Below, piece by piece: positions 5,701-31,739 of a DNA stretch of 64,000 bases (position 1 is its first letter; the number at the start of each line of letters is the position of its first letter). A model generated the notes under the pieces. It made no database searches and was not told the DNA's origin. It saw only the letters and a program-made list of their open reading frames with translations. This DNA comes from Sinohyriopsis cumingii. Taxonomy: Eukaryota > Mollusca > Bivalvia > Unionida > Unionidae. A program made the position numbers and the translations under genes. Location of the stretch: positions 86,759,540 to 86,823,539 of the forward strand of contig CM068839.1 of the NCBI GenBank assembly GCA_028554795.2, given 5' to 3'.

Positions 5701-7481
5701 GCTAAGTCACTGCATACGCCTAGTATGTTATCTAAAGTTACCAAGGCTGGAGTGCATGTATATGTCATGACAATGGTAGGTGTCACCATACTCTTAGCAT
5801 GTTGCCTGCAACTACCAAGGTTAGCGTTATTTGAATGAAATGACAACGCTAATTCACTGCATACGACTATTATGTTAAACTAACATTACCAAGGTTGGTG
5901 TGCATGTATATGACATTTCAATACAAGTTGACACCATACTCTTAGCATGTTACCTGCAAATACAAAAGTTAGATTGCTTTTGTAAGACATGGCAATGGTA
6001 GGTGAAACCATGCTAGTATTATGTTACCTGCAACTAACAATTTTAGAGTGCATGAATATGACATGGCAATACTAGGTAACACCATAGTCTTAGCATGTTA
6101 CCTGCAACTACAAGTGTTATAGTGCATGTATATGACATGGCAATGATATGTCACTCTATACGCCTAGTATATTATCTAAAGATACCAAGGCTGCGGTGCT
6201 TGTTTATGACATGGCAATACCAGGTGACACAATACTCTTAGCATGTTTACCTACAAATACTAAAGTTAGAGTACATGTATATGACATGGCAATACTAGGT
6301 GTACCATACTCTGTGCGTGTTACCGGCAACTAACAAGGTTAGAGTGCATGTATATGACATGGCAATGCTAGGTGACACCATAATGTTAGAATGTTACCTG
6401 CAACTACCAATATTAGAGTGCATGTATATTATATGGCAATGCTAGGTGACACCATACTCGTAGCATGTTACCTGCAACTGCCAAGGTTTGAGTGCATGTA
6501 TATGATATGGCAATGCTAGGTTACACCATACTATTAACATGTTTCCTACAACTACCAAGGTTAGAGTGCCTGTATATGACACGGGAATGCTAAGTCACTC
6601 CATACGCCTAGTATGTTATCTAAAGATATTAAGTTTGGAGTGCATGTGTATTACATGACAATACTAGGTGACACCATACTCTTAACATGTTACCTACAAC
6701 TACCATGGTTAGGGTGCATATGTATGACATGGTAATACTAGGTGACACTATACTCTATGTATGTTACCTAAAAGTACCAAGGCCACAATGCATGTATATG
6801 ACATGGCAATGCTAAGTCACTCCATACGCATAGTATTTTATCTAAAGATACCATGGGTGGAGTGCATGTAAATGACATGGCAATGCTAGGAGACACCATT
6901 ATCTTAGCTGGTTACCTACAACTACAAGGTTAGAGTGATCGTATTTGACATGGCAATGCTATGTCACTCCATCCGCATACTTTATTATCTAAAGATACCA
7001 CGATTGAAGTGCATTTATATGACATGGTAATGATATGTGTGAAACCATACTCTTTGCATGGTACCTTCACCTACCAATGTTTGAGTGCAAGTACATGACA
7101 AGGCAATGCTAGGTGACAACATACACTTAGCACGTTACCTACAACTACCAAAGTTCGAGTGTATATATATGACATGGCAATGCTATGTGACACCATACCA
7201 TTAGCATGTTACCTGCAGCTGCCAAGCTTGGAGTGCATGTATATGATATCACAATAGTGGGTGACACCATACACATAGCATGTTACCTGCAACTACCAAG
7301 GTTTGAGTGCATGTATATGAATGTCAATGCTAGGTTACAACATACTCTTATCACCTTACCAACAACTACCAAGTTTAGAGTAATGCTAAGTCACTCCATA
7401 CGGCTAGAATGTTATTTAAAGATAGCAAGGCTGGAGTGCATGTGTATGACATGACAATACTAGGTGACACCATACTTTTAG
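2771..7481. repeat. 74-bp satellite array, about 60 copies, two monomer types
   Basis: The spacing of the recurrent core GGCAATGCTAGGTGACACC is 74 bp (for example 6361 to 6435). Two monomer classes alternate irregularly. Type A has the core GGTGACACCATACTC and then AGCATGTTACCTGCAACTAC. Type B has AAGTCACTCCATACGCC and then AGTATGTTATCTAAAGATAC. Copies differ by scattered substitutions and small indels, so the array is old. It is interrupted by a SINE (3824-4075) and by Polinton 1, and resumes at 20304. Short open frames in it are by-products of the repeat. Confidence 0.92.
3824..4075 (-). mobile_element. tRNA-derived SINE in the satellite
   Basis: Read on the minus strand it begins with a tRNA-like head containing an A box (TGGCCGAGTGGTC) and a B box (GGTTCGAGTCC). 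It continues through a body shared with the copy at 42224-42385 and ends in an (AAC)n-type tail. The 11-bp target duplication GCAATGATAGG lies at 3813-3823 and 4076-4086, made from satellite sequence. The insertion is therefore younger than the array. Confidence 0.88.
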
Positions 7482-7487
7482 CATGTT
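7482..7487. other. left target-site duplication of Polinton 1 (CATGTT)
   Basis: CATGTT directly abuts the first base of the terminal repeat and is repeated at 20298-20303. Six bases is the duplication length known for Polintons. Confidence 0.93.
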
Positions 7488-7810
7488 AGTAGTGAATGGG
7501 GTCACTATAGGGACAATGGGACTTACCATTAAAAACAGGGCTGGGTCACTATAGGGACTAGGTAAATTTAACATGGGGAAAATTGCTGGGTCACTATAGG
7601 GACAAGGGGAATTTAACATGGCAGAAGAAAAAAAATAGCAATTCTAGGGACAAGGGGAATTTAACATGGGAGAAAAAAAAGCAATTCTAGGGAGAAGGGG
7701 AATTTAACATGGGATTTTTTTTTAAATAAAAAAATTAAAAAAGGGTAGGCAATTGAAAGTCTATCTCTTTTCGAGAGATGTGAGTGGCCCTGAAAAGGGC
7801 CTTTGGGTTT
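7488..7810. repeat. left terminal inverted repeat of Polinton 1
   Basis: It matches the reverse complement of 20065-20297 with few mismatches. It is about 90 bp longer because the unit around GGGGAATTTAACATGG was reduplicated at about 7620-7705. The inner end carries a histone-type stem-loop (7786-7801). Confidence 0.93.
7786..7801 (-). terminator. histone-type 3' stem-loop 1 (left terminal repeat)
   Basis: The minus strand reads GGCCCTTTTCAGGGCC, a perfect match to the metazoan histone mRNA 3' hairpin (6-bp stem, TTTC loop). It is preceded by AAA and followed by ACTCA. About 8 bases later comes the purine-rich CGAAAAGAGATAGA (plus coordinates 7761-7774), where a U7-binding downstream element is expected. 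Confidence 0.8.
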
Positions 7811-8383
7811 CTTTTTCTTCTTCTTCCACCAAGTCCTCACTTTTTCCATTATTCCTTTCTTCTTCCTCTTTTCAGTTTCTGTTATCCAGTCAGGATGACC
7901 CATATCTCCGAATTTCTGTTGGATCTTCATCCAGTTGTTATTCAATCTTTCAAACTCTAATTTCTTCTTCTTATTCTCTTCTTCCTTTCTCTCTTTGCTC
8001 CATTTTTCTTTTATCTTCATCACTTCTACTTTGATTACCTCTCTAATTAGTTCTTCTGCTTTTATCAACTGGTTAAAACCCCACTTTACGTACCACCAGT
8101 CAGTTCAATAAAAGCTATTTTCTAGGAAGCTCCTGACTTCTATGACATGATCCAAGGCTTCCTTTAAAGTACCTACTCTCACGTAAGGTGGGTCAATGAA
8201 TCCTCTGATTCTTTCTACTTCTTCCTCAATCATTCCCCTTATTAGATCTTTTGCTACTCCAAGACTCTTCACATTGTTCAGGCTACCTTGAAATCTTCCT
8301 TCCTTATTCAATCTTTTTACTACATAAGTCCCATCCATGATCCAAAAATAGCTATGTCTCAAATCGTTAAATAATTTTGTCAC
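7811..8383 (-). pseudogene. cassette A: small charged protein, interrupted by a stop
   Basis: The frame opens at 8383 and meets a TGA at 8105-8107. It then continues in the same frame with a similar segment to about 7811, running without a stop into the stem-loop of the left terminal repeat. Two tandem copies of one domain are visible. Each ends in a helix of the pattern LIRxxIxxEV-x-IK, as in VAKDLIRGMIEEEV and KAEELIREVIKVEV. The C-terminal half is very rich in K and E and is probably coiled. Related proteins are in cassettes B and C. The function is unknown. The in-frame stop and lost terminal stop suggest decay, although readthrough cannot be excluded. Confidence 0.55.
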
Positions 8384-8452
8384 CTCCAGCTTCTTTGTTT
8401 ATTCCTTAGAATGGTGCGAACGACTAACACTGTGGATTCTTATACGAAAAGT

Positions 8453-8543
8453 GCGGACGTGAAGGAAAACATCCCCCTAAAACAAAATTTATATTACCTA
8501 GATCATGACCAAACAATGCGCGGACGTGAAGGAAAACATCCCC
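8453..8543 (-). promoter_or_regulatory. cassette A promoter: duplicated 20-mer flanking a TATA box
   Basis: Two copies of CGGACGTGAAGGAAAACATC (plus strand) lie at about 8454-8473 and 8521-8540. Between them, in minus-strand orientation, is TAATATAAATTTTG, which contains a TATA box. The cassette A start lies about 70 bases downstream. The same arrangement precedes cassette B, and a single copy precedes cassette C. Confidence 0.6.
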
Positions 8544-8559
8544 TACTTTTCTCATCTCA

Positions 8560-8727
8560 TATTATCTACTATCCACATACGCGAAGCAGCAATAAACAAA
8601 CCCCAAATCTACTATCCACACACGCAAAGCATTAAAATGAAACCCAAATCTACTATCCACACACACCAACTTAAGCTCTTACAAAACCCAATAATCTACT
8701 ATCCACACAAACGTACGTGAGCGCTTA

Positions 8728-8764
<37 letters not shown>
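8560..8764. repeat. short direct repeats ATCTACTATCCACACA plus (CA)n
   Basis: Four spaced copies of a core near CTACTATCCACA occur between about 8568 and 8708, followed by a (CA)n run at 8730-8764. Similar copies lie upstream of cassette B at about 10285-10390, so they belong to the duplicated cassette upstream region. Confidence 0.7.
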
Positions 8765-8768
<4 letters not shown>

Positions 8769-8851
8769 AAAAGAGTCAGTGTTTATATTGACACTACTCT
8801 ACATACACACACTGGCAAATCGATTGTTATTTCTTTTCTAAAGGTTTGGGT

Positions 8852-8867
8852 AGCCCTGAAAAGGGCT
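8852..8867 (-). terminator. histone-type 3' stem-loop 2 (cassette B)
   Basis: The minus strand reads AGCCCTTTTCAGGGCT followed by ACCCA, with the purine-rich TAGAAAAGAAATA about 9 bases further on. The stem is perfect, and the outer pair differs from stem-loop 1 in a compensatory way (G-C changed to A-T). Confidence 0.78.
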
Positions 8868-9028
8868 GTTTGTTTTTGAACTCCAGTGACACCTGGTTAA
8901 TGATGGCACCTTCCAGGCCTGGCACCACACACACATTTTCTTCCCCAGTCTCCTTTTACTTTTTTTCTTGAGAGCGCAGAGGGAGGATGATTGGCTTAAG
9001 CACCCCAATCCTCTGTCTCTGGTATCTT

Positions 9029-9205
9029 TTAAGCCATCCTCTCTCCTATTTTCTTTTCCTCCTCTTCCCTCTGTCTTCTCTCCTCCTCTTCCTTCTTTAT
9101 TCTTCCCTCTTCTACTATGGCCTCCGCTGCCAGTTCATTTAACAGACGCCTGACATATTCCAGATGTATCTGGAGATCAAGAAGTTTGCTTATTCTGGTA
9201 TTCAT
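9029..9205 (-). CDS. cassette B: small charged coiled-coil protein
   Basis: This is a 58-residue frame if started at the second methionine (9205); an upstream methionine at 9244 would give 71 residues. The N-terminal part (ISKLLDLQIHLEYVRRLLNE) resembles the domain in cassettes A and C. The rest is almost purely E, K and R and is a likely charged helix. A stem-loop lies about 160 bases after the stop and the 20-mer promoter motif at 9271-9290. The function is unknown. It may be a truncated paralogue, since cassette C is about twice as long. Confidence 0.5.
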   Translation of the reverse strand: MNTRISKLLDLQIHLEYVRRLLNELAAEAIVEEGRIKKEEEERRQREEEEKKIGERMA

Positions 9206-9270
9206 TGTCTTGTTAACGAATGAACAGGGTAGATAGACTGCCAAGCGATTTTCAATTTATAGTTAAAGCG

Positions 9271-9290
9271 CGGACGTGAAGGAAAACATC
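9271..9290 (-). promoter_or_regulatory. cassette B upstream 20-mer (proximal copy)
   Basis: An exact copy of CGGACGTGAAGGAAAACATC. The distal partner was separated from it by the retroelement at 9317-10178 and now lies degenerate at about 10208-10228. Confidence 0.65.
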
Positions 9291-9316
9291 CCCCTAAAAC
9301 AAAAGTTATATTACCT

Positions 9317-10178
9317 GCAGTAATGGCGGCTATAAGTGGAAGCTAGTAAAGTGGGCTCTGTAGATTTTGGCAGTTATAAGTGGTTATTTTTACAGTGAAA
9401 TGGTTCATACTTGTTGGGATTATGTGTGAATATTCAAGGAATGCAGGACATACAACATTATTGGTAGATCTTAATCAGTTTTGAAAAAAATATGTTTTTC
9501 CATTCAAAATTCAAATATGATGGAATAGAGATGGAAGTTTAGTGGTGCAGTTTTGAGACATTCCCTACCTGATCTGTTTGACTCATTTACTTACTTCAGT
9601 GTAGTTTGCCTTCAACTGTAAGAATTGTTTGGCACATGGTGAGTAATAAATGTCAGTGTCACAACTGAGTAGTGAGAAAAAATTAGTCCAAATAAGATTA
9701 TCTACAAGTATGAGTGGAAAGAAAGATCAAGGCAAGCAACAAATAAAAACCAGATTACAGAGTGGCACCCTAATGGAGACATCTGACACAAGTATGAGTG
9801 AATCAACCTTGAGTACAATTCAGCTGGACTTGGATGAAATAAAGCAAAGTCTCAGAGGGAGCATTTCAAAAGCAGATTTTACATCTGCTATTGCTGACTT
9901 GGTGAAAAAGGATGACCTAGCAGAAATTGTTACAACTATTGTGAGGAAACTGTTAGAGAACGTGAAGGAGGATCTGAGAAAGGAGATAGTAGTAGAAAGT
10001 GAGAGGGTAATAAAGGAGAGGACAGGAGAGTTGATGGACAGGGTGGATTCACTGGAATTTGAAAACCACCAACTGTTAGAAAAATTACAAGAAGCAAAGA
10101 AGGAAAATGATAAAATGAGGATTGATATGAAAAAAAAAAAAATAAAAAAAAAAATAAAAAAAAAAAAAATAAAAAATA
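9317..10178 (+). mobile_element. retroposed LINE ORF1-type sequence inside Polinton 1
   Basis: The insertion splits a promoter block that is still continuous at 8479-8545. It is flanked by the 10-bp duplication TATATTACCT (9307-9316 and 10179-10188) and ends in an A-rich tail of A runs broken by single T bases (about 10130-10176). It contains a 5' leader and one long frame. Ordinary LINE copies lack their 5' end, whereas this one keeps it and lacks the 3' part. That suggests priming on an internal A-rich stretch. Confidence 0.8.
9650..10177 (+). CDS. LINE ORF1-like coiled-coil protein fragment
   Basis: This open frame of about 175 residues ends in the A-rich tail. It has a low-complexity N-terminus (about 1-60) and then a long charged coiled coil. 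Typical stretches are LVKKDDLAEIVTTIVRKLLE and VDSLEFENHQLLEKLQEAKK. This looks like the N-terminal coiled coil of L1/Tx1-type ORF1 RNA-binding proteins; the RNA-recognition part is absent. The last residues are translated tail and Polinton DNA. It is not part of the Polinton gene set. Confidence 0.55.
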
Positions 10179-10279
10179 TATATTACCTAGATCATGACCA
10201 AACAACGCGCGGACCTAAAAGAAACACTCACTTACTTTTTTATACTACCTATAACTATTCTTAAAAAAATTCATTAAAC

Positions 10280-10465
10280 AAATAATATACTATCCACATA
10301 CTCAAACCAGTCAAATCAAACCCCAAATCTACTCTCCACGCACGTCAAACAGCAAAAAAAAAACATGATCATTATCTACTATCTACACAAACACATACAC
10401 TCACACCACAAAAGAGTCAGTGTTTATATTCACACTACTCTTACATACACACATTGGTAAATCGA
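10280..10465. repeat. cassette B upstream repeat block
   Basis: Copies of the CTACTATCCACA-like repeat are followed by AGAGTCAGTGTTTATATT and ACATACACAC. The same succession occurs at about 8768-8815, immediately outside stem-loop 2. The parallel order shows that the whole cassette was duplicated in tandem. Confidence 0.7.
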
Positions 10466-10493
10466 ATGCTATTTCTTTTCTAGAATATTGGGT

Positions 10494-10509
10494 AGACCTG
10501 AAAAGGGCT
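10494..10509 (-). terminator. histone-type 3' stem-loop 3 (cassette C, one mismatch)
   Basis: The minus strand reads AGCCCTTTTCAGGTCT, then ACCCA, then TAGAAAAGAAATA about 9 bases on. One stem position is mispaired. It begins 27 bases after the cassette C stop codon, a spacing usual for histone mRNAs. Confidence 0.7.
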
Positions 10510-10535
10510 GCTTTTGTTTTTGCTATGGCAATCTT

Positions 10536-10899
10536 TTAGTTTCTAAGAATGCGATGTCCTCTGACGATAGACTTTCTGACGATAGGTCTGCTTCTTCGGA
10601 AAGAGAAGAAGAACTCTTTGGTGTCGATACGACAATCGACAAAGCCTCTGTCAGGTTCAGGTTGCTGCTGCTGCTGTTGTTGCTGTTGCTGCTCTCTCTG
10701 CTGTTTCTGAAGTCTGTACTTCTCTGTCCATTCTTCTTTCTCCCTGTCCACTTCTTCTCTGAAGAGCTCTTCTATCAGGTCTTCAGTGACTTTTAACATT
10801 CTCACATTCTCTATCTCTTCTGGCTTCGGTATCAGACTGTGTCTGACCCTATGCAAATTCACGTAGGCTTCGTTTAGCTTAGCTAGTTTGGAGCACATC
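10536..10899 (-). CDS. cassette C: small charged Q-rich protein
   Basis: The likely start is MCSKLAKLNEAY at 10899, about 70 bases below the 20-mer motif (10968-10987); an upstream extension to 11027 would read through that motif. The protein is about 120 residues. It has an N-terminal helical region and the family helix VTEDLIEELFREEVDREKEEW (about residues 40-60). A glutamine run follows, coded by CAG/CAA repeats (10660-10690 region), then a basic tail. The stop is followed closely by stem-loop 3. It shows no known domain and its function is unknown. It is the best-preserved member of the cassette family. Confidence 0.6.
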
Positions 10900-10967
10900 T
10901 TCGTAGGAGGATGAGTCGACAATGGATGGTTAGACTGATGGCTACCCCCGGCTTTAAAGTCAAAGCG

Positions 10968-10987
10968 CGGACGTGAAGGAAAACATC
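10968..10987 (-). promoter_or_regulatory. cassette C upstream 20-mer
   Basis: A single exact copy of CGGACGTGAAGGAAAACATC about 70 bases upstream of the cassette C start, the same position as in cassette A. Confidence 0.62.
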
Positions 10988-11027
10988 CCTCCACGGTTTT
11001 CGAGCCGCAACGTTCAATGAGTGTCAT

Positions 11028-11289
11028 GAGAGGGATAGTAAGAAGTCAAAGAGCATGAATCAAAATTCCTATAGCCAAACAAAAGACAAAGGCATTTTTT
11101 TTTCAAAACACAACATTTTTTATTCAAAATCACTTAACACTAACAAACAACTATAACATTTTTAATAATAATTTAACAATATAACATCAAACATTTTTTT
11201 TCAAATGACAAACATTTTTTTTGGCAAGTCACACATTATTTTGGGCAGGGTTGACAACGTTGTGAATGAAATTGTGAATTCCACTGTTG
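11028..11289. other. A/T-rich low-complexity spacer with a poly(A) signal
   Basis: Runs of A and T separate the cassettes from the capsid gene remnant. The minus strand contains AATAAA near 11131-11136, a possible polyadenylation signal for the leftward capsid transcripts. Nothing else was seen. Confidence 0.4.
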
Positions 11290-11965
11290 GAAGTCATTAG
11301 GCCATTGATGGACACTACGTTTCCTAGCTTGAGACAAAAGATAAGCATAATGGTCACAAAACCATCGATCTACTTTCACATCGTTTCTAACCACATGTCC
11401 AAATGCAAACGATCCATCAGTTCTAAACTTCGCCCTTGCAGAATTTTCTTACGACGGTCGTTAACCCCACATTGTGAGGATTGTCATCTTCTGTCAGGAC
11501 TGTGTCGCTAAACGTGGCTACACCTGCCGTGTCAGGTTTCCATACCACGCAAGCATCCAGATGAGTATTCTTGGCTTCTTTTCCGTACGTCAAGAGATTT
11601 TCCAGGTAGGCACGATATGGGTAAGTATCCATGCTGCTGCTGACCAGTTTGTTATTCAAGTACAAGTCCACTTCGCTGAACAAGGAATGCATGAAATTGT
11701 TGACAGGAGCTACTCTAGCATCGCCTTCTGGATTGGTGTTGTCCGTTTTGATCACTTTGACTTTCAAATAGAGGTAACTGCTACTCAGATCGATGTAATC
11801 TTCGGGCTGACCTTTGATTTCAAACTCGATGGGAGCGGAATCCGTCAAAGAGGAGACGGGGTGAAATTCCACCCACTGAGATTCTTGCATGGTCATCATG
11901 GTGGGGGGCATGGCAAACAGATCCAGTTCCGACTTGGAACAAGCGCAAGACTCTCGGTGCATCAT
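11290..11965 (-). pseudogene. major capsid protein, N-terminal third (truncated)
   Basis: The frame starts at 11965 and is open to 11423 (180 residues). It matches the N-terminal jelly-roll of the Polinton double jelly-roll major capsid protein: a conserved CACSKSELDLF start, an EFEIKGQPEDYIDLSSSYLY strand region, and VNNFMHSLFSEVDLYLN with NTYPYRA-like DTYPYRAYLENLLTYG. After the stop, a second frame shows a short matching stretch (ELMDRLHLDMWL). Then similarity ends at the AT-rich spacer. Family members are about 500-600 residues, so most of the protein is lost. This is a broken relic. Confidence 0.85.
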
Positions 11966-12074
11966 TTTTCTCTGTGTCTCAATAATCGAAAACGTCTAAG
12001 TCTCGGACGATTCTTCTTTTCTTTGCCTTTCTAGCTTTAGACGTGTGAAGTCTGGTGAAAGTGTGTTTTCTTCG

Positions 12075-12404
12075 TCATCTCTTTCTGTCTTGTCCTTGTT
12101 GAATGCCTGACTCGGTAGCGTGCAGGGCATTTATAGGTGTTTCTCGTCGGCCCAAGAGGTCTTTGCCCGTTTGCAGCAAGACATTTTTGCCTGCCCTCAT
12201 GAAGGCTTCTTTAGGATTTTGTTTGTCGATGATGACATTTTGGAGAAATTCTTTGCCTTGTGTCAGTGCGGCATCTTTCAAGGCGTGCAATCCGCGTGTC
12301 ACCATCGGTTTCAACACCGGGGCCACCGAACGAAAGGCCGATTTCAGCATATCTCCTAAAACGTCTCCTCGCTGTCGAGCAACCCCTCGGTACACTGGAT
12401 ACAT
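12075..12404 (-). CDS. pX-like virion/core protein
   Basis: An intact 109-residue frame whose start lies 4 bases from the stop of the penton gene, so they are probably co-expressed. The N-terminus PVYRGVARQRGDVLGDMLKS is followed by an amphipathic, basic segment (FRSVAPVLKPMVTRGLHALK). This matches the small basic protein next to the capsid genes in many Polintons, which is compared with adenovirus core protein pX or pVI. Polinton 2 has a clear counterpart at 24901-25353. The likely role is binding DNA or membrane inside the particle; this is inferred from family and position. Confidence 0.65.
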   Translation of the reverse strand: MYPVYRGVARQRGDVLGDMLKSAFRSVAPVLKPMVTRGLHALKDAALTQGKEFLQNVIIDKQNPKEAFMRAGKNVLLQTGKDLLGRRETPINALHATESGIQQGQDRKR

Positions 12405-12407
12405 GAC

Positions 12408-13338
12408 TTACGAGTCGTGAGAGAACCGTTTTCGAAAATGGAGTTTCACCGTGACTTTTCCTTTGGTGAATGGACTATTTTGTCCCAGATCTCCTTTTAT
12501 AGCAATGTTGACCGTGTCCAAATACGACTTGCTGACAGGCAAATAGTGAGGATGTACAAATTCGCGGTGAAAGTAGTAAGTGTTTCCACCTTCCTCGTCA
12601 GCGGTCGTGGCAGAATCCACTTTGAAAGGAATGACACTTACTAACGGCACAGAGGTGTGTCCCACCACGTTGTACTCCACCACATCGGAGTACACAAACA
12701 TCAAATTTAGTCCTTGGTTCAGTTCTACCGGGGCACGAAATAACTTGCTAAAAGACTCGTTGTCGTAAATGATTAGTAATTCGTTTTTCTTGAGCATGGC
12801 CATTCTCATGTCCATGTCTCCACCCAACATGTCAAACAATTCAGAACAAAATAAAATGTACACGATTTTACTCCCGTCAAATTTCATCAAGAAGCGACGA
12901 GCTGCTTTGTGGTATTCCATGGTGACACTTTTTTTGACACTTTCCAAAGCTTTCAGAAACACGACATTAAACCTGGAGGTTATGGTGCTCACCAAATGTT
13001 GACCACTAAAATAATAGCCTGGGGGAAGGAAAGTGATAGGTGGTGTACTTTTGATTTTTTGTGCCAGGGGTTTTCTTGTCATATTTGCCATAGGTATCCA
13101 AGTACTGTTGCAATTGTTCGTCATGAACTTCCACATCAAAAAAATTTTGATTGGGAAGGACATTGAGGACTTGAGTCGGGTGAATGATTTCTACTAAAGC
13201 CACTTCCCAATGGGCTTCGTGATCTAATGGGATGGTCTGAGGTAATTTGGCCGTGTAACAGCACAACGTGTTCTTGGGAAACACCTCTATGGAACTGTCA
13301 CTGGGTAAGGTTAAGTAAAAGTGGTTTTGGTGACTCAT
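12408..13338 (-). pseudogene. penton-type minor capsid protein, frameshifted
   Basis: The N-terminal part (frame 13338 to about 13030) has the family signature FYLTLPSDSS...AKLPQ...WEVALVEI. The rest lies in another frame (about 13060 to 12408). It has the PPGYYF start of the second half and the conserved C-terminal strands PHYLPVSKSYLDTV and GKVTVKLHFRKR. The switch falls near 13020-13060, close to T6 and C-run tracts. Together the parts have the length of an intact Polinton single jelly-roll protein, so this is a simple frameshift, either real decay or a sequencing error. Confidence 0.85.
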
Positions 13339-13643
13339 AATTCCAGAGTTCTGTGGTTGTCCGAGGGGTTACTGGACGTCAGAGTCGTCTCTCCGCCCAA
13401 AATAGGGTTGTTGCTGTTATTGGAGTGGTGACTGGCACTGGCACTGGACACAAGGTTCCCGTTGTTCCCGTTGGAAGAGAATTTCAGGGAGGGAATGGGA
13501 AGCAGGTAACCGATGCAACTGCTCAATAAAATAGTCCACAATTGTTTGTCTCCTTGTTGCAAACTCAAATTGGCAATGGCTGCACCGATGACACAATACA
13601 CCACGAAGATTTGGCAGAAAAAGACGATTTGCGTTTTAGGCAC
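13335..13643 (-). CDS. small membrane protein of the Polinton virion block
   Basis: An intact 102-residue frame that ends overlapping the first codons of the penton gene. Two hydrophobic segments (about residues 5-25 and 36-52) are separated by a short polar link (NLSLQQGDKQLW). The C-terminal half is rich in S and N. A short two-helix protein directly upstream of the penton gene is a recurring Polinton feature. No enzymatic motif is visible. Confidence 0.6.
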   Translation of the reverse strand: MPKTQIVFFCQIFVVYCVIGAAIANLSLQQGDKQLWTILLSSCIGYLLPIPSLKFSSNGNNGNLVSSASASHHSNNSNNPILGGETTLTSSNPSDNHRTLEL

Positions 13644-13740
13644 ATGTTCTCCACATCACACCCACAAGGGCTGTTTCTGTAATTCTTGCAGAGAAGAACT
13701 GGGTGAAGGAGTGGTCGACGTAGCTGCGTCTGCATGATGG

Positions 13741-14338
13741 TCACTTCTTTTTATAGTCGATGACTTGCGAAGCGTCGATCCAAGAATCAAAACTGGGTGG
13801 GTATCCTTTCCAACGTACTTTGACTTCTTTGACACGTCGTTTACCCACTTTACGGGTTCTGCGTTCGAGAATGCCTTCGATGTCGTACACGTCGTCTTCT
13901 TTTTTGGTGACACGTTGTAACTCGGGCAAATAAAACGTTCCTTTGAGCACTTCTCCGTTCATGTCTTCCAATTTATAGAGGCAGGATGTCGGCCAACACT
14001 CGTCCAGTGACACGAAACAATTCGGTAGTCCAGTTAGGTAAGTAACCTTTGTCGAAAGTGCGTTTGGTTTTGCCAATGCGCACCCAATCTCCTACGGTCA
14101 ACACTCCACTTTTCTTGGGGACAGCCCTCGTCGGGGACGTACCAAACAGGTGCTCAAACACCAACACTTCGTTCTCGGGAGTCACTTCTTGCGGGGCACG
14201 TCCGATGCTTCGATGGTAAGATTGGTTGTACGCTTGCACCAGGTACGGTAAGATGTCGATGTACTTCAGAGTGTGGTGATGCGTAAAATATTTCCACATG
14301 CGGTCACACACCTTTTTTATACTGGAACGCGTCGCCAC
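13741..14338 (-). pseudogene. integrase C-terminal half with chromodomain (truncated)
   Basis: The first frame (14338-13973) carries the end of a retroviral-type integrase core (YLVQAYNQSYHRSIGRAPQEV) and the following SH3-like segment (VGDWVRIGKTKRTFDKGYLPNW). A second frame (14076-13741) carries its end and a chromodomain (YDIEGILERRTRKVGKRRVKE...WKGYPPSFDSWID). The frame changes near 14000-14030. Upstream of 14338 only about 100 bases separate it from the next gene, so the catalytic core with the DDE residues is deleted. Confidence 0.85.
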
Positions 14339-14439
14339 TGATTGTCTTTACGTCGTATTAACTTCAGGACAGGCATGACACGTCGTGCAGGGGTACGTAA
14401 CGGACTAAATCCAGCCAGTTCTTGCTTGGACAAATCCAG

Positions 14440-14939
14440 TTAACTTTGTAACATGCCCGATCTTTCTTGAAGTTTGATTTTGGGAGCAGGTACTTTGTGA
14501 GCAGCAGCCACTGCCACTAAATTGGAGGGTCCTGCCACTGGGGAAGTTCTTGGGGTCATCAACGGAGAAGTTCTTGGTGTAATCAACGTCTCCAAGTACT
14601 CGTCAGTTCTTGGTGTCATCAACGGGGAAGTGGATGAACTTGAGGCTGCCGGAGACGTGGTCACCACTGTTGCAGGTCGTGGTTTGCGAGTGTAAGGTTG
14701 CGTCCTGGTTGAAGTGCCTCTCTTGCGACTAGTTTTCTTCTGTGGACTTTTCTGGGGACTTTTTCTCTGCTTCTTTTTCTGGGGGCTTCTTTTCTTTTTC
14801 CGGGGTGGTGTCTGGTAAGAGGAGGGTCCCGCCACTGGAGAAGTTCTTGGAGACACGGGTCTCCTTGGGGACCTGGTCTTTTTCTTCTTCTTCTTGGAGC
14901 TTCGTTTGACTTTTTTCTTGGGGAGAACTTTGGGGGCAT
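14440..14939 (-). pseudogene. basic S/P/K-rich core-like protein, frame broken
   Basis: The likely start is 14939 (MPPKFSPRKK). The basic low-complexity composition then continues in a second frame from about 14885 to 14440, where the motif TPRTSPLMTPRTSPVAGPS is repeated. A TAA ends it at 14440, and about 40 further open codons in the same frame suggest a nonsense mutation. Composition and position between the ATPase and integrase suggest a DNA-condensing virion protein, but no homology is assigned. Confidence 0.5.
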
Positions 14940-14976
14940 TAGGATCCCATCTTAAGAGAGCGAATGATGACCCCTC

Positions 14977-15268
14977 CTAGAGTACCGCTCCAGGTTTCAA
15001 AATGATTTGTTTTTTGGTTTGAGTGTCGATGCGAGGATCGGCCAGTTGGGTCAAAGCGACTTTGTTTCGATCAAAAAAGCGTTTGGTTTGATGAGGAATC
15101 TGAATGATCCCTTGTAGTAATTGACGTGCAGTCACCGCGAACCATCGTAAGACTTCTTTGAGACTAGCTTCTAAGACACGAGCTCGTATTTGTGGATTTT
15201 TTTTCTCGACTGATGCCATACAAGGCACGAATCAATTTGACGGGAAGATGCGACTGAAGGGACGTCAT
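14977..15268 (-). pseudogene. Polinton-associated small protein, frameshifted at A8
   Basis: A start at 15268 (MTSLQSHLPVKLIRALYG) lies 40 bases below a TATA box (15308-15315). The frame shifts at an A8 run (plus-strand T8 at 15197-15204) into the conserved part: LEASLKEVLRWFAVTARQLLQGIIQIP, then KVALTQLAD and KKQIILKPGAVL. Short proteins with this pattern are common in Polintons and related elements. The function is unknown. The A-run makes a sequencing error as likely as a mutation. Confidence 0.55.
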
Positions 15269-15307
15269 GTTCAAACTGTGTGTGAGACAAACGAAAAGTG
15301 TCTGAGG

Positions 15308-15315
15308 TTTTTATA
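15308..15315 (-). promoter_or_regulatory. TATA box for the gene starting at 15268
   Basis: The minus strand reads CTATAAAAACC about 40 bases upstream of the start codon, a normal polymerase II spacing. Confidence 0.6.
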
Positions 15316-15335
15316 GATTTTTTTGTTGAGTGAAG

Positions 15336-16055
15336 TTAAGTCGAGGACGGAAACGTGTACAGGACAGGCCCTCCGTCTTGGCACCAGTGGTGAAACAAGT
15401 GGGTACGAAATCGCAAATCATCGGGGGTCGTCGGTTTCAAATCGACGAGTAAATATGCGTGTGGAGTTTGAGTGGCATCGTCGTACGCCTGAGTCAGCCA
15501 AGGCGTTCCTAACTGTTTGGCTAAGACTTGCACTTGCGATTTATCTCGAGGGCTTTTAAACAAGACCACGTAATGTGCATTGAGACTGATGGTGCGATGG
15601 GCTTTACTTTGTTGAAACAAATTTTGGGTGATGTAAACGACACTGGCATTACGGTGATGCCCTTTGCGCGTGAACCACAGTTTAATTTCTTCTTCGTCTT
15701 CTCCTAACATGTCAAAAATGACCAGATGGGTTTGACGGGAGTCAGAGACGATGCCGTCGTCTTCTTTAGGAATGCCTTCCACAAACACGATGGAATCGCC
15801 TTGACTTTCTCGCAAGAGGCTGTACGCCGATTGCCACTCTTTGTAACACCACAAGATGCGCTGTCGATCGATCAAATGATGTTTATGTTCGATCAAGCGT
15901 TTAACGAGTTCGGTTTTGCCTGAACCGCTAGGTCCAGCAATGAGCATGTTAAAGGGATGGCGAAGATACAAAGCCTCCCAACTGGCACGATCTAAGTGTT
16001 CGTCGATGACTTTGACAGTGGAGGAAGAGGGAGCAGAGACAGCAGAGGTAGCCAT
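15336..16055 (-). CDS. genome-packaging ATPase (FtsK/A32 type)
   Basis: An intact 239-residue frame. The Walker A motif GPSGSGKTE is at residues 41-49 and the Walker B strand LVIFDML at 111-117 (Asp115). The sensor-like YITQNLFQQ follows at about 135. This order and length match the packaging ATPase of Polintons, adenovirus-like and A32-type viruses, which pumps DNA into preformed capsids. A TATA box (16102-16109) lies about 45 bases upstream. It is the only clearly intact enzyme gene of this element. Confidence 0.9.
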   Translation of the reverse strand: MATSAVSAPSSSTVKVIDEHLDRASWEALYLRHPFNMLIAGPSGSGKTELVKRLIEHKHHLIDRQRILWCYKEWQSAYSLLRESQGDSIVFVEGIPKEDDGIVSDSRQTHLVIFDMLGEDEEEIKLWFTRKGHHRNASVVYITQNLFQQSKAHRTISLNAHYVVLFKSPRDKSQVQVLAKQLGTPWLTQAYDDATQTPHAYLLVDLKPTTPDDLRFRTHLFHHWCQDGGPVLYTFPSST

Positions 16056-16101
16056 AGTGTTAGGAATGTCACTTGTGACACGAAAACAAACAAGACGAGA
16101 G

Positions 16102-16131
16102 TTTATATACTTTTTTCAGGACACGTTTATT
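16102..16131 (-). promoter_or_regulatory. ATPase TATA box and upstream gene poly(A) signal
   Basis: The minus strand contains GTATATAAAC (16102-16109), about 45 bases upstream of the ATPase start. Just before it is AATAAA (16126-16131), suitable as polyadenylation signal for the gene ending at 16186. Compact head-to-tail units with their own signals are implied. Confidence 0.55.
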
Positions 16132-16185
16132 GAATGTTTCAAATATGAACAACACGAAAGACAAAAATACATAAAAGCCAAATAG

Positions 16186-16904
16186 TTATGTACAGGATAA
16201 AAAACACATCAAAACGATCAAAGTGGAATATAAACAAGTCTCTGTACAACATGTTTTGGGTAACCAAGATGTCCTAAGGACAGTGTGTAATGTTCTTACA
16301 GTCTCTATATGAGGTATTGTCACACAAGTGTCCTCCCGGGATGATCTTTCAGGAATGTCCATGACAGTCCTGTCCTGAAGCGAGTGGTTGTTCTCGGTGA
16401 CGGGTTCTTCTGGCACTGTCACTAACACAGGTTGAAAAGTAACTTTTTTCCTTGAACAACTCTTGTGCATACTGGGCCACTTCTTGGGTCCAAGCCTCAA
16501 ACCCCCCTTTTTCCAGTCACGAACATCTGTCCAATGGAGGTGTAAGTCACAAGCTACACACACATCGTCATACACGTCTTCGGTAGCTAAAAGTTGACGA
16601 ATCCTTTTTTCCTGTTGAGGTCGAGAAGTATCCAGATGAAAACGCAAGGCTTTGAGCAAAAGGAGTCTTTCGTGACCATTTAAGGAAATTGGGGTGGTAA
16701 GTACTGATCGTAAAGAGTCCACAAGGAATCGGCTGGTAAACGAAATTCCAGAAAACAAGTCACTAAGACACACACTATGCGTCGTCCCAAATTGAATGGA
16801 TACAGTTCTTGTAATAATTGATGGTAATGATCCACGGTTTGAATATGGTCATTGAGTTCCTTCCACGGAATCTGTTCAATCACTTGTGACATAAGCCGTG
16901 GCAT
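16186..16904 (-). pseudogene. unknown protein in two overlapping frames
   Basis: The frame from 16904 to 16680 (MPRLMSQVIEQIPWKELNDH, then NLGRRIVCVLVTCFLEFRLP) overlaps a second frame, 16773-16186. The second continues naturally with NGHERLLLLKALRFHLDTSR and a Cys pair region (CVACDLHLHW). The two together look like one gene with a frameshift near 16690. The C-terminal third has acidic and hydroxyl-rich tracts. I do not recognise a family. Position next to the F-box-like fragments suggests an accessory host-interaction gene. Confidence 0.4.
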
Positions 16905-17367
16905 GGATTCCTGATTTTATACTCTCTTTATTTCGGAAGCAATAAAGGTACTTTATAACTAGACATCTTCGTTCTCTAGTAGAGAATCTAAATCTTGCAT
17001 ACCGTAACCTACACTTCAGAGTTTGTCTAGATGTTTCGTCTTCCGCTAAGCAGATTCCACGTAAAATATGTTGGTAATCCTTTAACTCGTCTTCCTCAAT
17101 ACGTTGCTCTAGGTGAATCTCGAAGTAACCAAAATTACGAACATTTAGTTCATTCACTAACTGAAAGTGATGAACAAGGTCTGACCACTGAAACAATTTC
17201 TGACAAATCAGTCCTCTTATACCATTCAGGTACCAGTGGTTCAAACACCGGTGACGTAACGGATGCAATTATTCTTTACGTTTGACTTGTATTTTGACCA
17301 GCTCTCGGTAAATGCGTTCTCTTAACTCCACAGGCAAACCACGAATGTTCTCTTGTAAAGTATCCAT
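16876..17367 (-). pseudogene. F-box-like accessory protein, in-frame stop
   Basis: The start at 17367 (MDTLQENIRGLPVELRERIY) resembles an F-box (LP-x-EL-x3-IY). A TAA at 17269-17271 interrupts the frame, which then continues to 16876. The later part (EEDELKDYQHILRG...RQTLKCRLRYARFRF...LVIKYLYCFRNK) is clearly related to the adjacent fragment at 17380-17583, so the gene was duplicated. The F-box assignment rests on a short motif. F-box proteins recruit targets to SCF ubiquitin ligases, so a host-modulating role is possible but unproven. Confidence 0.45.
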
Positions 17368-17379
17368 GAATATTTCATA

Positions 17380-17583
17380 CTAAATTCTCTGTCTGACACA
17401 ATAAATGTACCGTTTGCACAGACATGGTTTTAATTCATTGTCGAATCTAAATCGTTTAATCACTAATCTACACATTAAAATTCGTTCAGAAGTTTCCTCT
17501 TTCACTAAGTTGACATTGCGTAAAAGATTTTGGTAATTCGTTAACTCTTCCTCTGGAATTGGATCCAGTAAGTTTACAATGTA
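17380..17583 (-). pseudogene. fragment of the F-box-like gene, second copy
   Basis: The frame contains LLDPIPEEELTNYQNLLRNV and a segment matching RILMCRLVIKRFRF and KRYIYCVRQR. It aligns residue by residue with the C-terminal half of the neighbouring gene. It is fused directly downstream of the polymerase stub, so a deletion or recombination probably joined them. Confidence 0.55.
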
Positions 17584-17589
17584 CTAGAT

Positions 17590-18180
17590 AGAATTATCAA
17601 TAAGACCTTTCTGCGGCCAGTCCCTTGAGGAGGAGAGACGTGGGTCATGTCCAGTGTGGCTTTTCCATCGGTGATGTCAAACTGGTCATTGGATTGTTGC
17701 ACGTGTTGAATCTTGTCCATGACTTTGGAAGCGGTCAATTCTGTAGGGCTGCTAAACTCGATCCAAACGGGATTTCAAACCGTCGTGTTGTGTGGAAAGT
17801 CTCAAGCGATCGTCTTCTTTGGGTTGACATTGTCGCTTGAGTGTGGCAAGCAAAGAATCCCACATCTCGGTGATGAACCCTTCTGCTTTCTCTAACGGTA
17901 CTTCGGACTTGAAATCTTTAAACTTCACCGTGTATTTGTAAGCCGTGGTTCTAAGTTTTCTAGAGGGACGCTTTTCCGTCTCTCGAATGTCATAGTACTT
18001 TTCAGGGTTAACTAAGGGTGGTGAACTTTGTTTAGAGGGTTTGGATTCTGGTTCACTCATGTCCTCTTCAAAATCACTGGCATGAATTTGTGCCAAGACT
18101 TCAGCCCTGGTACGAGGCGATAGATCACGTTTCTGCCTCTTACTTTCTTCTTTCTTCTCAAATGAATTGGATCGTTTCAT
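17590..18180 (-). pseudogene. protein-primed DNA polymerase B, N-terminal stub
   Basis: The frame from 18180 has a basic, serine-rich start and a conserved segment (TVKFKDFKSEVPLEKAEGFI). It ends at 17752, and the match continues in another frame (NPVWIEFSSPTELTASKV...IQHVQQSNDQFDI...THVSPPQGTGRRK) to about 17590. This succession is typical of the region upstream of the catalytic domains of Polinton polymerases. No exonuclease or palm motifs follow, so more than 2.5 kb of the gene is missing. It cannot encode a polymerase. Confidence 0.65.
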
Positions 18181-18227
18181 CCTGATAGCAAAAAGTCAAA
18201 TGACTAAAGTTTAAACACCATGGACTA

Positions 18228-18260
18228 ATTTATAGTCATGGCAGACCAGCGTATATAAAA
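18228..18260. promoter_or_regulatory. divergent promoter with back-to-back TATA boxes
   Basis: The minus strand has CTATAAATTAG (18228-18234) serving the polymerase stub, and the plus strand has GTATATAAAAGGG (18252-18260) serving the zinc-knuckle gene. The boxes are only 17 bases apart. Confidence 0.65.
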
Positions 18261-18314
18261 GGGTATGTGTCTTGTCCTTCCACTATTCATTTCACTCTCA
18301 AACTGAGCACAACG

Positions 18315-18685
18315 ATGGAAGAGACTACCCAGATCGAACGTTTCATCAGAGCTTTGCGAGGGTCATTAGAAAATTCTCTTCAGACCAGCCGACGGACTAC
18401 TCTCCTTCCTTGCGAGATAAAAGTGAAGATACTTGCTATATCTGTCAGAAGAAAGGGCATTGGTCTTCAGAGTGTCCAGACCGTCAAAAAAGAAAAATAG
18501 GGGTTAAAAGAGACAAAAGTCAAGATACCAGTTATTATTGTCAAGAAAAAGGACATTGGTCTCCAGATTGCCCAAAAAAGAAAGAAGAGGAGCCAGAAGA
18601 AGAGAGGGATTCTTCAGAGGAAGAAGAAGAGGAAGAAAGCAGACAGGTGAAGAAAAAGAAACAGGAGAAGAAGGGAAGAAAGTGA
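18315..18685 (+). CDS. CCHC zinc-knuckle protein, frame uncertain
   Basis: The only well-placed ATG (18315, 55 bases below the TATA box) starts MEETTQIERFIRALRGS. The zinc-knuckle part lies in the next frame, so a frameshift near 18375-18390 is implied. The knuckle CYICQKKGHWSSEC has full C-x2-C-x4-H-x4-C spacing. A second copy (SYYCQEKGHWSPDC) lacks the first cysteine. The tail is an acidic then lysine-rich run. Such knuckles bind single-stranded nucleic acid. AATAAA follows at 18832. The direction is opposite to the capsid genes. Confidence 0.55.
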
Positions 18686-19000
18686 GGAGGAAGACGAGGA
18701 AAAGACTGTGAAGGTGAAGAAATTTAAAAAACAGGGAAACTAAATAATGAGACAGAAGAAGTGTATGAACTTTTTAAAGTGATTTGTTGAGAATTGTGAA
18801 TCGTGAATTGGATTGTAAATATTTATAAAAGAATAAATTAGGTATAAAAGGTAAGTGTCTTTGAGTTTTGATTTTGAAATAAGAACGTACACTCACACAC
18901 TCATACACACGTACTATAGGGGTAAAATGGGTTGTTCTGTTTTCTTTGAGTTTGAATGGATGTTGGCAATTGAAAGTCTATCTCTTTTCGAGAGACGTGG
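18686..19000. other. spacer with poly(A) signal and TATA-like motif
   Basis: It contains AATAAA at 18832-18837 for the zinc-knuckle gene and a TATAAAAGG-like motif near 18843. No gene was seen. Confidence 0.4.
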
Positions 19001-19002
19001 GT

Positions 19003-19018
19003 GGCCCTGAAAAGGGCC
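19003..19018 (-). terminator. histone-type 3' stem-loop 4
   Basis: The minus strand reads GGCCCTTTTCAGGGCC followed by ACCCA and, 9 bases on, CGAAAAGAGATAGACTTTCA. The flanks are nearly identical to the terminal-repeat copies over about 55 bases, so this is an internal copy of the repeat's inner end placed behind the gene at 19179. Confidence 0.8.
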
Positions 19019-19178
19019 TTTTTTGGTGATGGGGTGAGTTTAAGCAATCAACTTTAACTGTCTTAAGCCTTTGCCACGGCCAAGACCTACTTCTGGACTG
19101 CGTACTGTTGATGCTGATGATGATTTGATTGAAATCACTAAGGGTGGCACGGTAGGCTTAGTCACAGGGTTGGCGTGT

Positions 19179-19604
19179 TTAGCTCGGGAAGGTCGTATTC
19201 TCTTCGGTCGTAATAAAGAAATCTAATACATTTGTTTCAGACTTCTTAACTCCGCTAAAATGTCTAACAGTGACCGTTTGATTTTCACACCCTTGTTTCT
19301 TTGCTGCTGCTTCTTCTTCTTGTTTTTTTCTTACCTCTTCTTCTTGCTGTTGTTGCTGTAGGAGAAAAGCTTGTTCCGCTTCCTTTTGCTGTTGTATAAA
19401 TTTCTCCAATTCTTCTTTCTGTCTCTGTCTAAAATTCTCCACGTGCGGTAATGAAGAAGGTGACGAAGGTTCCGGAACAAATTCTTGCGAGGTAAGAAAC
19501 TCCACAAAATCCCAATTTACCTCTTCTGAAAGTAAGTCCGGGTTCCCTTGGGTGGTCTCCACTGCTGGTGCACCCCAATTGATCGTTTTCTGAGTTTCCG
19601 TCAT
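19179..19604 (-). CDS. Q/E-rich coiled-coil small protein
   Basis: The start is taken at 19604 (MTETQKTINWGAP), about 50 bases below a TATA box (19653-19658); an upstream methionine at 19664 lies before that box and is unlikely. The protein is about 141 residues. It has an acidic N-terminal part (residues 1-55), then a Q/E/K coiled coil (about 65-105), then a polar tail. It resembles the cassette proteins in composition but lacks their helix motif. A histone-type stem-loop lies 160 bases after the stop. Function unknown. Confidence 0.55.
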   Translation of the reverse strand: MTETQKTINWGAPAVETTQGNPDLLSEEVNWDFVEFLTSQEFVPEPSSPSSLPHVENFRQRQKEELEKFIQQQKEAEQAFLLQQQQQEEEVRKKQEEEAAAKKQGCENQTVTVRHFSGVKKSETNVLDFFITTEENTTFPS

Positions 19605-19652
19605 GTTGAATAACTGTCGCATGAATTGACTGCGCACAGGCGCTAGCGAATC

Positions 19653-19779
19653 TATATAGACCACGTGACGTCACAGACTGCTCTCTTCGGATTGGATGCG
19701 GGCTGACTGAATTTTGTAACGCGTGTTTGGATTGGTCAATGAACTCAATCCGTTTCAATCCTTCCTCTACCTATAAATA
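19653..19779. promoter_or_regulatory. bidirectional promoter: TATA, E-box/CRE, two CCAAT boxes, TATA
   Basis: In order: TATATA (19653-19658, serving the leftward gene), CACGTG overlapping the palindromic CRE TGACGTCA (19662-19673), ATTGG at 19691 and 19731 (inverted CCAAT boxes), and TATAAATA (19772-19779, serving the rightward gene, 45 bases before its ATG). These are standard metazoan polymerase II elements and resemble ATF/NF-Y-driven viral and histone promoters. Confidence 0.72.
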
Positions 19780-19823
19780 AGCGCAGTTCACTGCATTGAT
19801 TCACCTGTTCTCGACGCCTCAGC

Positions 19824-20054
19824 ATGTGGACCGACGTTGAATCTTCCACCCTTGTGTCAACAATGATGTTCAGGACGGACTTACCGATGTATGTCCGGTC
19901 CGAATGGACAATTGTCCATAGGACCGCCACAAGCCTATGGATACGTAGGATTTACGTGGAAAGGCAAGGATGCCTCAAAAGAGTGTTAGTGTATGGTCCT
20001 ACCATTAGACAAAGCCTAAGGACAAGAAGAAGTCACAGATGCCCTTTATGTTAA
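19824..20054 (+). CDS. small basic protein transcribed into the right terminal repeat
   Basis: A 76-residue frame (MWTDVESSTLVSTMMF...) follows a consensus TATA box by 45 bases. It ends 19 bases before the histone-type hairpin of the right terminal repeat. The C-terminal half is arginine-rich (RIYVERQGCLKRV, RTRRSHRCPLC). No family is recognised. The promoter and 3' hairpin on either side are the main reason to believe it is real. Confidence 0.45.
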   Translation: MWTDVESSTLVSTMMFRTDLPMYVRSEWTIVHRTATSLWIRRIYVERQGCLKRVLVYGPTIRQSLRTRRSHRCPLC

Positions 20055-20064
20055 AGGCATATAT

Positions 20065-20297
20065 AAACCCAAAGGCCCTTTTCAGGGCCACCCACATCTC
20101 TCGAAAAAAGATAGACTTTCAACTGCCTACCCTTTTTTTATTTTTTTGTTTAAAAAAAAATCCCATGTTAAATTCCCCTTGTCCTTATAGTGACCCAGGA
20201 ATTTTCCCCATGTTAAATTTACCTAGTCCCTATAAGTGACCCAGCCCTGTTTTTAATGGTAAGTCCCATTGTCCCTATAGTGACCCCATTCACTACT
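20065..20297. repeat. right terminal inverted repeat of Polinton 1
   Basis: The 233-bp inverted partner of 7488-7810, ending CATTCACTACT-3'. It includes stem-loop 5 and lacks the reduplicated unit of the left copy. Confidence 0.93.
20074..20089 (+). terminator. histone-type 3' stem-loop 5 (right terminal repeat)
   Basis: The plus strand reads AAA-GGCCCTTTTCAGGGCC-ACCCA, then CGAAAAAAGATAGACTTTC. It lies 19 bases after the stop of the rightward gene at 19824-20054. Confidence 0.8.
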
Positions 20298-20303
20298 CAT
20301 GTT
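20298..20303. other. right target-site duplication of Polinton 1 (CATGTT)
   Basis: Identical to 7482-7487. The satellite motif AGCATGTTATC resumes here, so the empty site is an ordinary monomer. Confidence 0.93.
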
Positions 20304-23759: not shown

Positions 23760-23787
23760 GCGGAATTAAATCATTGACAAATAAATA

Positions 23788-24867: not shown

Positions 24868-24900
24868 CAAATTTAGTTAGAGAAACAATAATTAAATAAA

Positions 24901-25353: not shown

Positions 25354-25364
25354 TTTTATATAAA

Positions 25365-26783: not shown

Positions 26784-26808
26784 CAATTAGATTAGTTTCT
26801 GAAATATA

Positions 26809-27264: not shown

Positions 27265-27278
27265 CGCTGAAACACAAA

Positions 27279-27713: not shown

Positions 27714-27731
27714 AAAACAGCAATAAGAATA

Positions 27732-28892: not shown

Positions 28893-28936
28893 TTGAAAAT
28901 TACCAGTAATTGAAATCGCCAGCGATTTTAAATAAT

Positions 28937-30839: not shown

Positions 30840-30935
30840 AATTGGAAATGCAAAGCATTTCTGGAAGAGTTTCCAAATTGGAAATGCAAAGCATTTCTCT
30901 GGCGATGCTAGCATCGCTCACGCATTTAAAAAAAA
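30840..30935. repeat. hairpin cluster after the penton gene
   Basis: Two copies of the hairpin GAAATGCAAAGCATTTC (30845-30861, 30881-30897) and one GGAAGAGTTTCC precede GGCGATGCTAGCATCGCTC (30901-30919). They lie directly after the penton stop codon and could act in transcript ending. The same composite appears elsewhere in the element with different arm sequences. Confidence 0.85.
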
Positions 30936-30948
30936 ACAGTTGTGTATA

Positions 30949-31735: not shown

Positions 31736-31739
31736 ATTT

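Follow-up and report, generated by a model that had tools for sequence, protein, structure and literature searches.

A Polinton-derived element of Sinohyriopsis cumingii carries histone-type mRNA 3'-end signals behind small genes

A stretch of 64,000 nucleotides from the bivalve Sinohyriopsis cumingii (contig CM068839.1, positions 86,759,540 to 86,823,539; hereafter the window) contains a broken element, best called Polinton-derived, in which five copies of a module resembling the 3' end of animal histone genes are found (Table 1). In histone pre-mRNA, the stem-loop binding protein (SLBP) binds a stem-loop, the U7 small nuclear ribonucleoprotein (snRNP) binds a histone downstream element (HDE), and CPSF73 cuts between the two; the cleaved mRNA of animals carries no poly(A) and is supplied in step with S phase (PMC5011920, PMC7026596). 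It appears likely that the modules are histone pre-mRNA 3'-end signals of the working type, which end the mRNAs of small genes without poly(A) and probably couple these genes to S phase.

All five modules share one plan, i.e., a 6-bp stem with a TTTC loop, ACYCA, a gap and a purine box with GAAAA. An initial annotation of this DNA had listed five stem-loops, four of them perfect and one with a single mismatch, behind small genes and in both terminal repeats. Both the count and the locations were borne out: the mismatch is in module A, all copies are in sense, and two stand at the inner edges of the repeats. The annotated ACCCA-like sequence with GAAAAGA 8-10 bases later required adjustment, as the gap is exactly 8 nt in all copies, the left repeat has ACTCA and the right repeat has GAAAAAA. 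In the 64 kb, three matches exceeded the gathering score (34 bits) of the Rfam model Histone3 (RF00032), all within the element; the other two modules matched below this score in a search of 16 kb. Perfect 6-bp stems with a TTTH loop occur five times in the window; four are modules, all with TTTC, and the fifth is an unrelated AT-rich sequence at 54059. The pattern stem-loop, ACYCA, 4-14 nt and GAAARRA, which was composed after the copies had been seen, matched five times in the 64 kb and not once in 100 shuffles, and a looser module rule found no modules in 300 simulated elements. On these counts, an origin by chance was ruled out for the hairpins. The compensation that had been proposed for the outer pair fared less well. 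The change between G-C and A-U exists, but it is common to the related modules A and B and probably reflects one event. Covariation gives weak support, its level being attained in 42 of 500 shuffles.

In three of five cases, the placement of the modules also resembles that of histone 3' ends. For A, D and E, the stem follows the stop codon after 19-26 nt, and neither AATAAA nor ATTAAA occurs between stop and stem of any of A to E. The proteins of A, D and E show no similarity to one another in blastp at E<=1. Inspection by eye suggests a charged, coiled-coil-like character for those of A, B and C. None of the three has a Pfam match above the cut-off, nor does the extended open reading frame (ORF) of gene A (10536-11027), and no histone match was found in the small ORFs. 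B, D and E each have a TATA box 52-56 nt ahead of the start, and D and E diverge from a common promoter region with CCAAT sites; histone gene pairs are likewise divergent with CCAAT sites between them. The canonical histone genes of Hydractinia lack a poly(A) signal and have a stem-loop soon after the stop codon, an HDE and a predicted TATA box (PMC5011920). As these hallmarks are the same as those of the module genes, they were counted in favor of histone-type 3' ends.

The modules fall into two diverged groups, C/D/E and A/B. Between the groups, mean identity is 0.84 in the stem-loop, 0.93 in ACYCA and 0.88 in the purine block, vs. 0.47 in the 5' flank, 0.42 in the spacer and 0.43 in the 3' tail. 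The 8-nt spacer has thus diverged in sequence with its length kept. Invariant columns make up 26 of 32 in the blocks and 6 of 25 outside (Fisher p 3e-5), or 23 of 28 and 9 of 29 when a narrower purine block is used (p 1.5e-4); since the block limits were set with the alignment in view and neither columns nor copies are independent, these p values are a guide rather than a formal test. Such block-wise conservation is the pattern that recognition by SLBP and U7 would preserve. It also bears on the possibility that a histone 3' untranslated region of the host was captured accidentally and multiplied within the element without function. Indeed, the five copies look descended from one module, one stem is already damaged, and the element copy is broken. 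However, spacer and flanks were lost between the diverged groups while the signals were kept, the modules are placed behind small ORFs, and a matching run-on is found behind gene D on another contig, as discussed below. Passive capture is, therefore, unlikely.

The run-on comes from the homologues of gene D, a family of 16 proteins at E<=0.001 that are up to 86% identical. Fourteen of them have 193-230 residues, and the members tested have no Pfam match above the cut-off and no convincing match in the PDB. The C-terminal piece of gene D stops where its nearest homologue, P0121, stops, and one other homologue, P0124, reads beyond the family stop. When the last 22 residues of P0124 were compared with all 127,868 places of 66 nt on both strands of the window, the best place was module D, with 10 forced differences in 66 nt; the next best were modules E, C, B and A (12, 13, 17, and 17 forced differences), and the sixth place had 23. 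At the start of the stem, G-G-C-C is dictated by these residues, which are also compatible with the TTTC loop, ACCCA and GAAAAGAGA, about 28 nt downstream of the lost stop. Most likely, the D gene that encodes P0124, a single predicted protein (71% identity) from a contig of 1,150 bases with JGI and ENA sources, has kept the module at this position. The remaining 13 long homologues end before the module position, and two further ones, P0135 and P0136, are either short or hybrid; all of these are neutral evidence. By eye, P0136 combines the beginning of the gene D family with residues similar to those of the ORF at 17574-17774 on the minus strand (ITDGKATL.MTHVS.PQGTG). This fusion points to a relative in which the stretch from D to 17574-17774 was seemingly deleted and, hence, to gene D belonging to such elements.

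Alternatively, the module might be a DNA signal of the terminal repeats, involved in replication, packaging or integration, that mimics a histone stem-loop, with stray duplications as internal copies. It does mark the inner edge of both terminal repeats, and over 60 nt, module D and the right repeat agree at 93%, with little similarity outside. Yet, the copies A, B and D are internal and lie in sense behind ORFs, and what is conserved are the blocks of the RNA signal, ACYCA and a purine box at a fixed gap, which go beyond a mere palindrome. A gene D homologue elsewhere that fits the same module does not agree with a repeat signal either, and this alternative is considered improbable.

If the modules act as histone-type 3' ends, the stem-loop would be the target of the host SLBP, ACYCA the cleavage site, and the purine box the HDE for the host U7 snRNP. 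The mRNAs of the small, apparently intronless genes near both element ends would then terminate without poly(A), whereas the capsid and zinc-knuckle genes would use ordinary poly(A) hexamers instead. Given the link between this pathway and S phase in animals, expression of the small genes would probably coincide with host DNA replication. Expression at this time and the export of intronless transcripts are the likely gains, which might benefit replication of the element. In terms of sequence, the earlier claim that the full signal for SLBP/U7 processing is present is strong, considering the conserved functional blocks, the close placement in three of the five copies, the P0124 run-on and the absence of hexamers between stop and stem; processing, lack of poly(A) and the S-phase link are the part of that claim to be read as predictions. 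A variant of this mechanism is that SLBP and U7 do end the transcripts, but mainly as a terminator or insulator at the element edges and between tandem genes, without S-phase control. The inner limit of each inverted repeat coincides with the 5' flank of a stem, so that each repeat opens with a 3'-end signal for outward transcription, and the modules in both repeats face outward; furthermore, in the tandem A, B and C the module separates one gene from the next promoter box. Against this variant, module D closes a single gene, and the link of the pathway with S phase is general in animals (PMC5011920). We consider it very improbable. The tandem array itself is apparent from a duplicated unit (8440-8877 and 10168-10519) that consists of the upstream box, CA-rich and TATCCACAC repeats and the module; thus, A, B and C form an array of gene, 3' signal and next promoter, a layout that resembles a histone cluster. 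A LINE-like insertion at 9317-10178, recognized as such by eye, lies in the promoter region of gene B; it has a coiled-coil ORF and an A-rich tail and is flanked by TATATTACCT at 9307 and 10179.

Several observations weigh against histone-type processing of these transcripts. This copy of the element is broken and perhaps not expressed. The stem of module A is weakened (-1.8 kcal/mol), and gene A has no TATA box by the pattern used. The TATA position is not special to the small genes, as the ATPase gene and the gene at 17752 have the box at the same distance. Genes B and C do not fit the short spacing between stop and stem: the distance is long in B, and in C the frame is interrupted by a TGA and an ORF continues through the stem. 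Modules C, D and E match one another by 87-100% in their signal blocks and may have arisen by recent copying. The residues of P0124 force an A at the sixth stem position, by which the closing U-A pair is changed or lost. Human U7, the sequence of which was taken from PMC7026596 and which was used in place of the host U7, pairs with the 45 nt downstream no better than with shuffles (the fraction of shuffles pairing as low was 0.28 for C, 0.67 for B, 0.09 for A, 0.22 for D, and 0.53 for E). Contig L001 in a Bathymodiolus-symbiont assembly, which holds a diverged relative, contains no module by Rfam at E<=5, and the best match of a module-specific model in it had an E of 0.49. L001 is weak counter-evidence, however, since it has no long terminal repeats and shows no clear similarity in tblastn to the gene D family or the small ORFs (best E 0.05). 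Finally, AATAAA is found inside the ORF of gene B (9101) and past module B (8403).

More tentatively, and with somewhat less than an even chance, the element may represent an animal Polinton lineage with a two-class program, in which small S-phase genes copy the design of histone genes and a capsid class uses poly(A). The design copied would be the lack of introns, a divergent CCAAT/TATA promoter, an SLBP/U7 3' end and perhaps association with the histone locus body, with the genes at both ends of the element and terminating in its repeats. The capsid fragment is followed by ATTAAA at 11166 (70 nt downstream) and AATAAA at 11124 (112 nt), and a poly(A) hexamer stands 55 nt after the ORF at 16186-16848 and 147 nt after the CCHC ORF. 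No signal of either kind is close to the ATPase gene, the integrase remnant or the ORFs between them, and the next hexamer follows only after 2.6-4.2 kb. As these core genes lack either signal and AATAAA occurs in and near B, the two-class picture rests on few genes.

Table 1. Features of the Polinton-derived element and of a second virus-like element in the window (positions in the window; stem-loop and Histone3 positions in the direction of the module).
Feature	Position	Strand	Details
Polinton-derived element	7488-20297		Broken copy, 12,810 bp; inverted repeats, CATGTT duplication on both sides, gene content
Left terminal inverted repeat	7488-7810		Extra internal repeats without counterpart in right repeat; inner edge is 5' flank of histone stem-loop
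Gene C remnant	7661-8338	-	Two ORF pieces in one frame with TGA between; second piece open through module C
Module C / left repeat	7750-7806	-	Stem-loop 7801-7786, ACTCA, 8 nt, GAAAAGA; Histone3 7806-7761, 38.8 bits
Repeated upstream box GGATGTTTTCCTTCACGTCCGCGC	8451-10988	-	First bases 10988, 9291, 8541, 8474 (1 mismatch), 10230 (7 mismatches); before A, B, C
Module B	8816-8872	-	Stem-loop 8867-8852, outer pair A-U, ACCCA, 8 nt, GAAAAGA; Histone3 8872-8828, 31.1 bits, E 1.4e-5, below gathering score
Gene B	9029-9205	-	Small ORF (MNTRISKL...); box at 9291 and TATAAA at 9261 upstream; stem 161 nt past stop
Module A	10458-10514	-	Stem-loop 10509-10494, outer pair A-U, one C.U mismatch, ACCCA, 8 nt, GAAAAGA; Histone3 10514-10469, 18.8 bits, E 0.54, below gathering score
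Gene A	10536-10898	-	Small uninterrupted ORF (MCSKLAKL...), open to earlier ATG at 11027; stem 26 nt past stop; box at 10988
Putative major capsid gene, N-terminal part	11236-11995	-	47% identity over 148 residues to L001 ORF
Putative minor capsid (penton) gene, two frames	12408-13338	-	Piece 12408-13163: 35% over 100 residues to L001 ORF, same order
Integrase C-terminal remnant with chromodomain	13741-14347	-	Pfam Chromo E 1.3e-7; one piece matches L001 integrase region
Packaging ATPase (Pox_A32)	15336-16055	-	Pfam E 8.4e-7
CCHC zinc-knuckle gene	18236-18685	+	Pfam zf-CCHC E 3.7e-12; AATAAA at 18832
Module D	18967-19023	-	Stem-loop 19018-19003, ACCCA, 8 nt, GAAAAGA; Histone3 19023-18978, 37.1 bits
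Gene D, broken	19040-19604	-	Pieces in two frames, 19179-19604 and 19040-19222; stem 21 nt past stop of second piece
Divergent promoter region between D and E	19623-19823		TATA box each way, two CCAAT/ATTGG sites, one TGACGTCA
ORF E, 76 residues, uncertain coding status	19824-20054	+	TATAAATA at 19772; stem 19 nt past stop
Right terminal inverted repeat	20065-20297		Inner edge is 5' flank of histone stem-loop
Module E / right repeat	20069-20125	+	Stem-loop 20074-20089, ACCCA, 8 nt, GAAAAAA; Histone3 20069-20114, 40.7 bits, E 1.5e-8
Second element, DJR-type capsid ORF	25344-26783		
Second element, protease-like ORF	27042-27713		By eye
Second element, HNH ORF	31890-32426	-	
Second element, rve integrase	36328-37311	-	
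Second element, PLA2-like domain	37312-37686	-	
Second element, Pox_A32 ATPase	37684-38502		

The limits of the element are precise. Its inverted repeats begin with AGTAGTGAATGGGG, have their outer ends at 7488 and 20297, and are flanked exactly by a 6-bp target duplication at 7482-7487 and 20298-20303, a length that is typical of Polintons. The insertion was into a 74-bp satellite array (6500-7487 and from 20298 onward). Among the proteins encoded, the ATPase has 530 homologues at E<=0.001; the closest among the 120 of these that were listed has 92% identity and represents a cluster of 65 sequences, and the size of this family suggests that many copies of the element exist. One related protein in this search was sourced from the symbiont assembly Thiodiazotropha taylori. 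Together with the symbiont assembly that contains L001, this source hints at a bivalve host, Thiodiazotropha being linked with lucinids, but is no proof of one. Of the integrase, the C-terminal part alone is visible; its counterpart in L001 adjoins an rve fragment (E 5.4e-6, under the Pfam cut-off). The two capsid-type ORFs (12408-13338 and 11236-11995), which we take to encode the minor capsid (penton) and the major capsid, respectively, had no family match in the Pfam scan. The region 16186-17583 on the minus strand contains at least two ORF pieces without a Pfam match that look related by eye (motif like RFRF...CL.K.YIYC.R). A search for LxCxE in three frames of the gene intervals gave two matches, one spanning a stop in the ATPase interval and the other, LFCSE, in the penton interval.

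The initial annotation had called the element a Polinton. Packaging ATPase, integrase remnant with chromodomain, capsid-type ORFs in the order found in L001, long inverted repeats and the 6-bp duplication are all shared with Polintons/Mavericks (Polintoviricetes) and support this name. On the other hand, the element measures 12.8 kb, its small genes have histone-type ends, and no protease was found in this copy, nor was a Pfam polymerase match for pPolB obtained among 28 element ORFs scanned, a subset in which small unrecognized pieces may be missed. The longest ORF of the element has no more than 260 residues. Polintons are described by pPolB and the RVE integrase (PMC4642659, PMC11071308), and pPolB is called universal in them (PMC4642659). 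Because pPolB and protease were not found in the copy, we describe it as a broken, Polinton-derived element rather than a complete Polinton.

L001 was the only relative returned by the scan of genome contigs. Its region 9788-15444 is a block of Polinton-type genes, in the order ATPase, integrase, penton-type ORF and capsid-type ORF, and probably is of mussel origin, contaminating the assembly of a bacterial symbiont. Thus, the comparison with related Polintons that the initial annotation had envisaged could be made with a single DNA locus, which showed neither the module nor a clear match to the small genes. The module-specific model recovered the five known copies in the window and elsewhere gave matches at chance level only. 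No relatives were found among viral contigs by the ATPase, the penton piece, the ATPase alignment, stem-loop patterns or the gene D alignment, none among plasmids and phages by tblastn of the ATPase, and nothing in a protein search with the translated left-repeat region.

A second virus-like element in the window (23785-38502) has long open frames and no Histone3 match. Between its HNH and integrase ORFs, a single stop-to-stop ORF of 1,223 residues (32633-36304) contains an SF1-type helicase (Pfam AAA_19 and AAA_30) and, by eye, PolB-like motifs and an HNH-like end; it is perhaps an unusual polymerase-helicase fusion.

The initial annotation knew of no description of histone-type 3' ends in Polintons, and none was found here: no paper in the literature searched, which mostly lacks subscription papers, contained both "Polinton" and "histone stem-loop", and a broader search of titles and abstract starts among the matches listed revealed no such signal in Polintons, Mavericks or viral mRNAs. 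This agrees with the earlier statement, although absence from print is not thereby established. Among protein-coding mRNAs, those of metazoan histones are regarded as unique in ending in this stem-loop (PMC6303110). On the more tentative two-class reading, the small genes would provide the first known class of non-histone protein-coding mRNAs with a metazoan histone 3' end of their own. If the modules work as proposed, the SLBP/U7 pathway could serve other genes. An integrated DNA element would have a simple route to sense S phase, and natural substrates of SLBP and U7 that vary independently of histones would become available. It would also explain why libraries of poly(A)-selected RNA could miss such genes.

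Viruses have been reported to affect the levels of SLBP or histones, i.e., SARS-CoV-2 in connection with frameshifting (PMC12166091) and HTLV-1 through Tax (PMC2276518). These cases resemble the present one in the viral use of, or effect on, histone and SLBP biology, but neither appears to concern viral mRNAs that themselves bear a histone 3' signal. The closest known system is the replication-dependent histone mRNA. The small ORFs differ from it in lacking a Pfam match to histones, in being located in a mobile element and, in two copies of the module, in an A-U first stem pair. They share with it the 6-bp stem, the UUUC loop, ACCCA and a purine HDE at a short, fixed distance (RF00032), as well as the stem soon after the stop codon in three of five cases, small uninterrupted ORFs and, in one pair, divergent genes with CCAAT sites between them.

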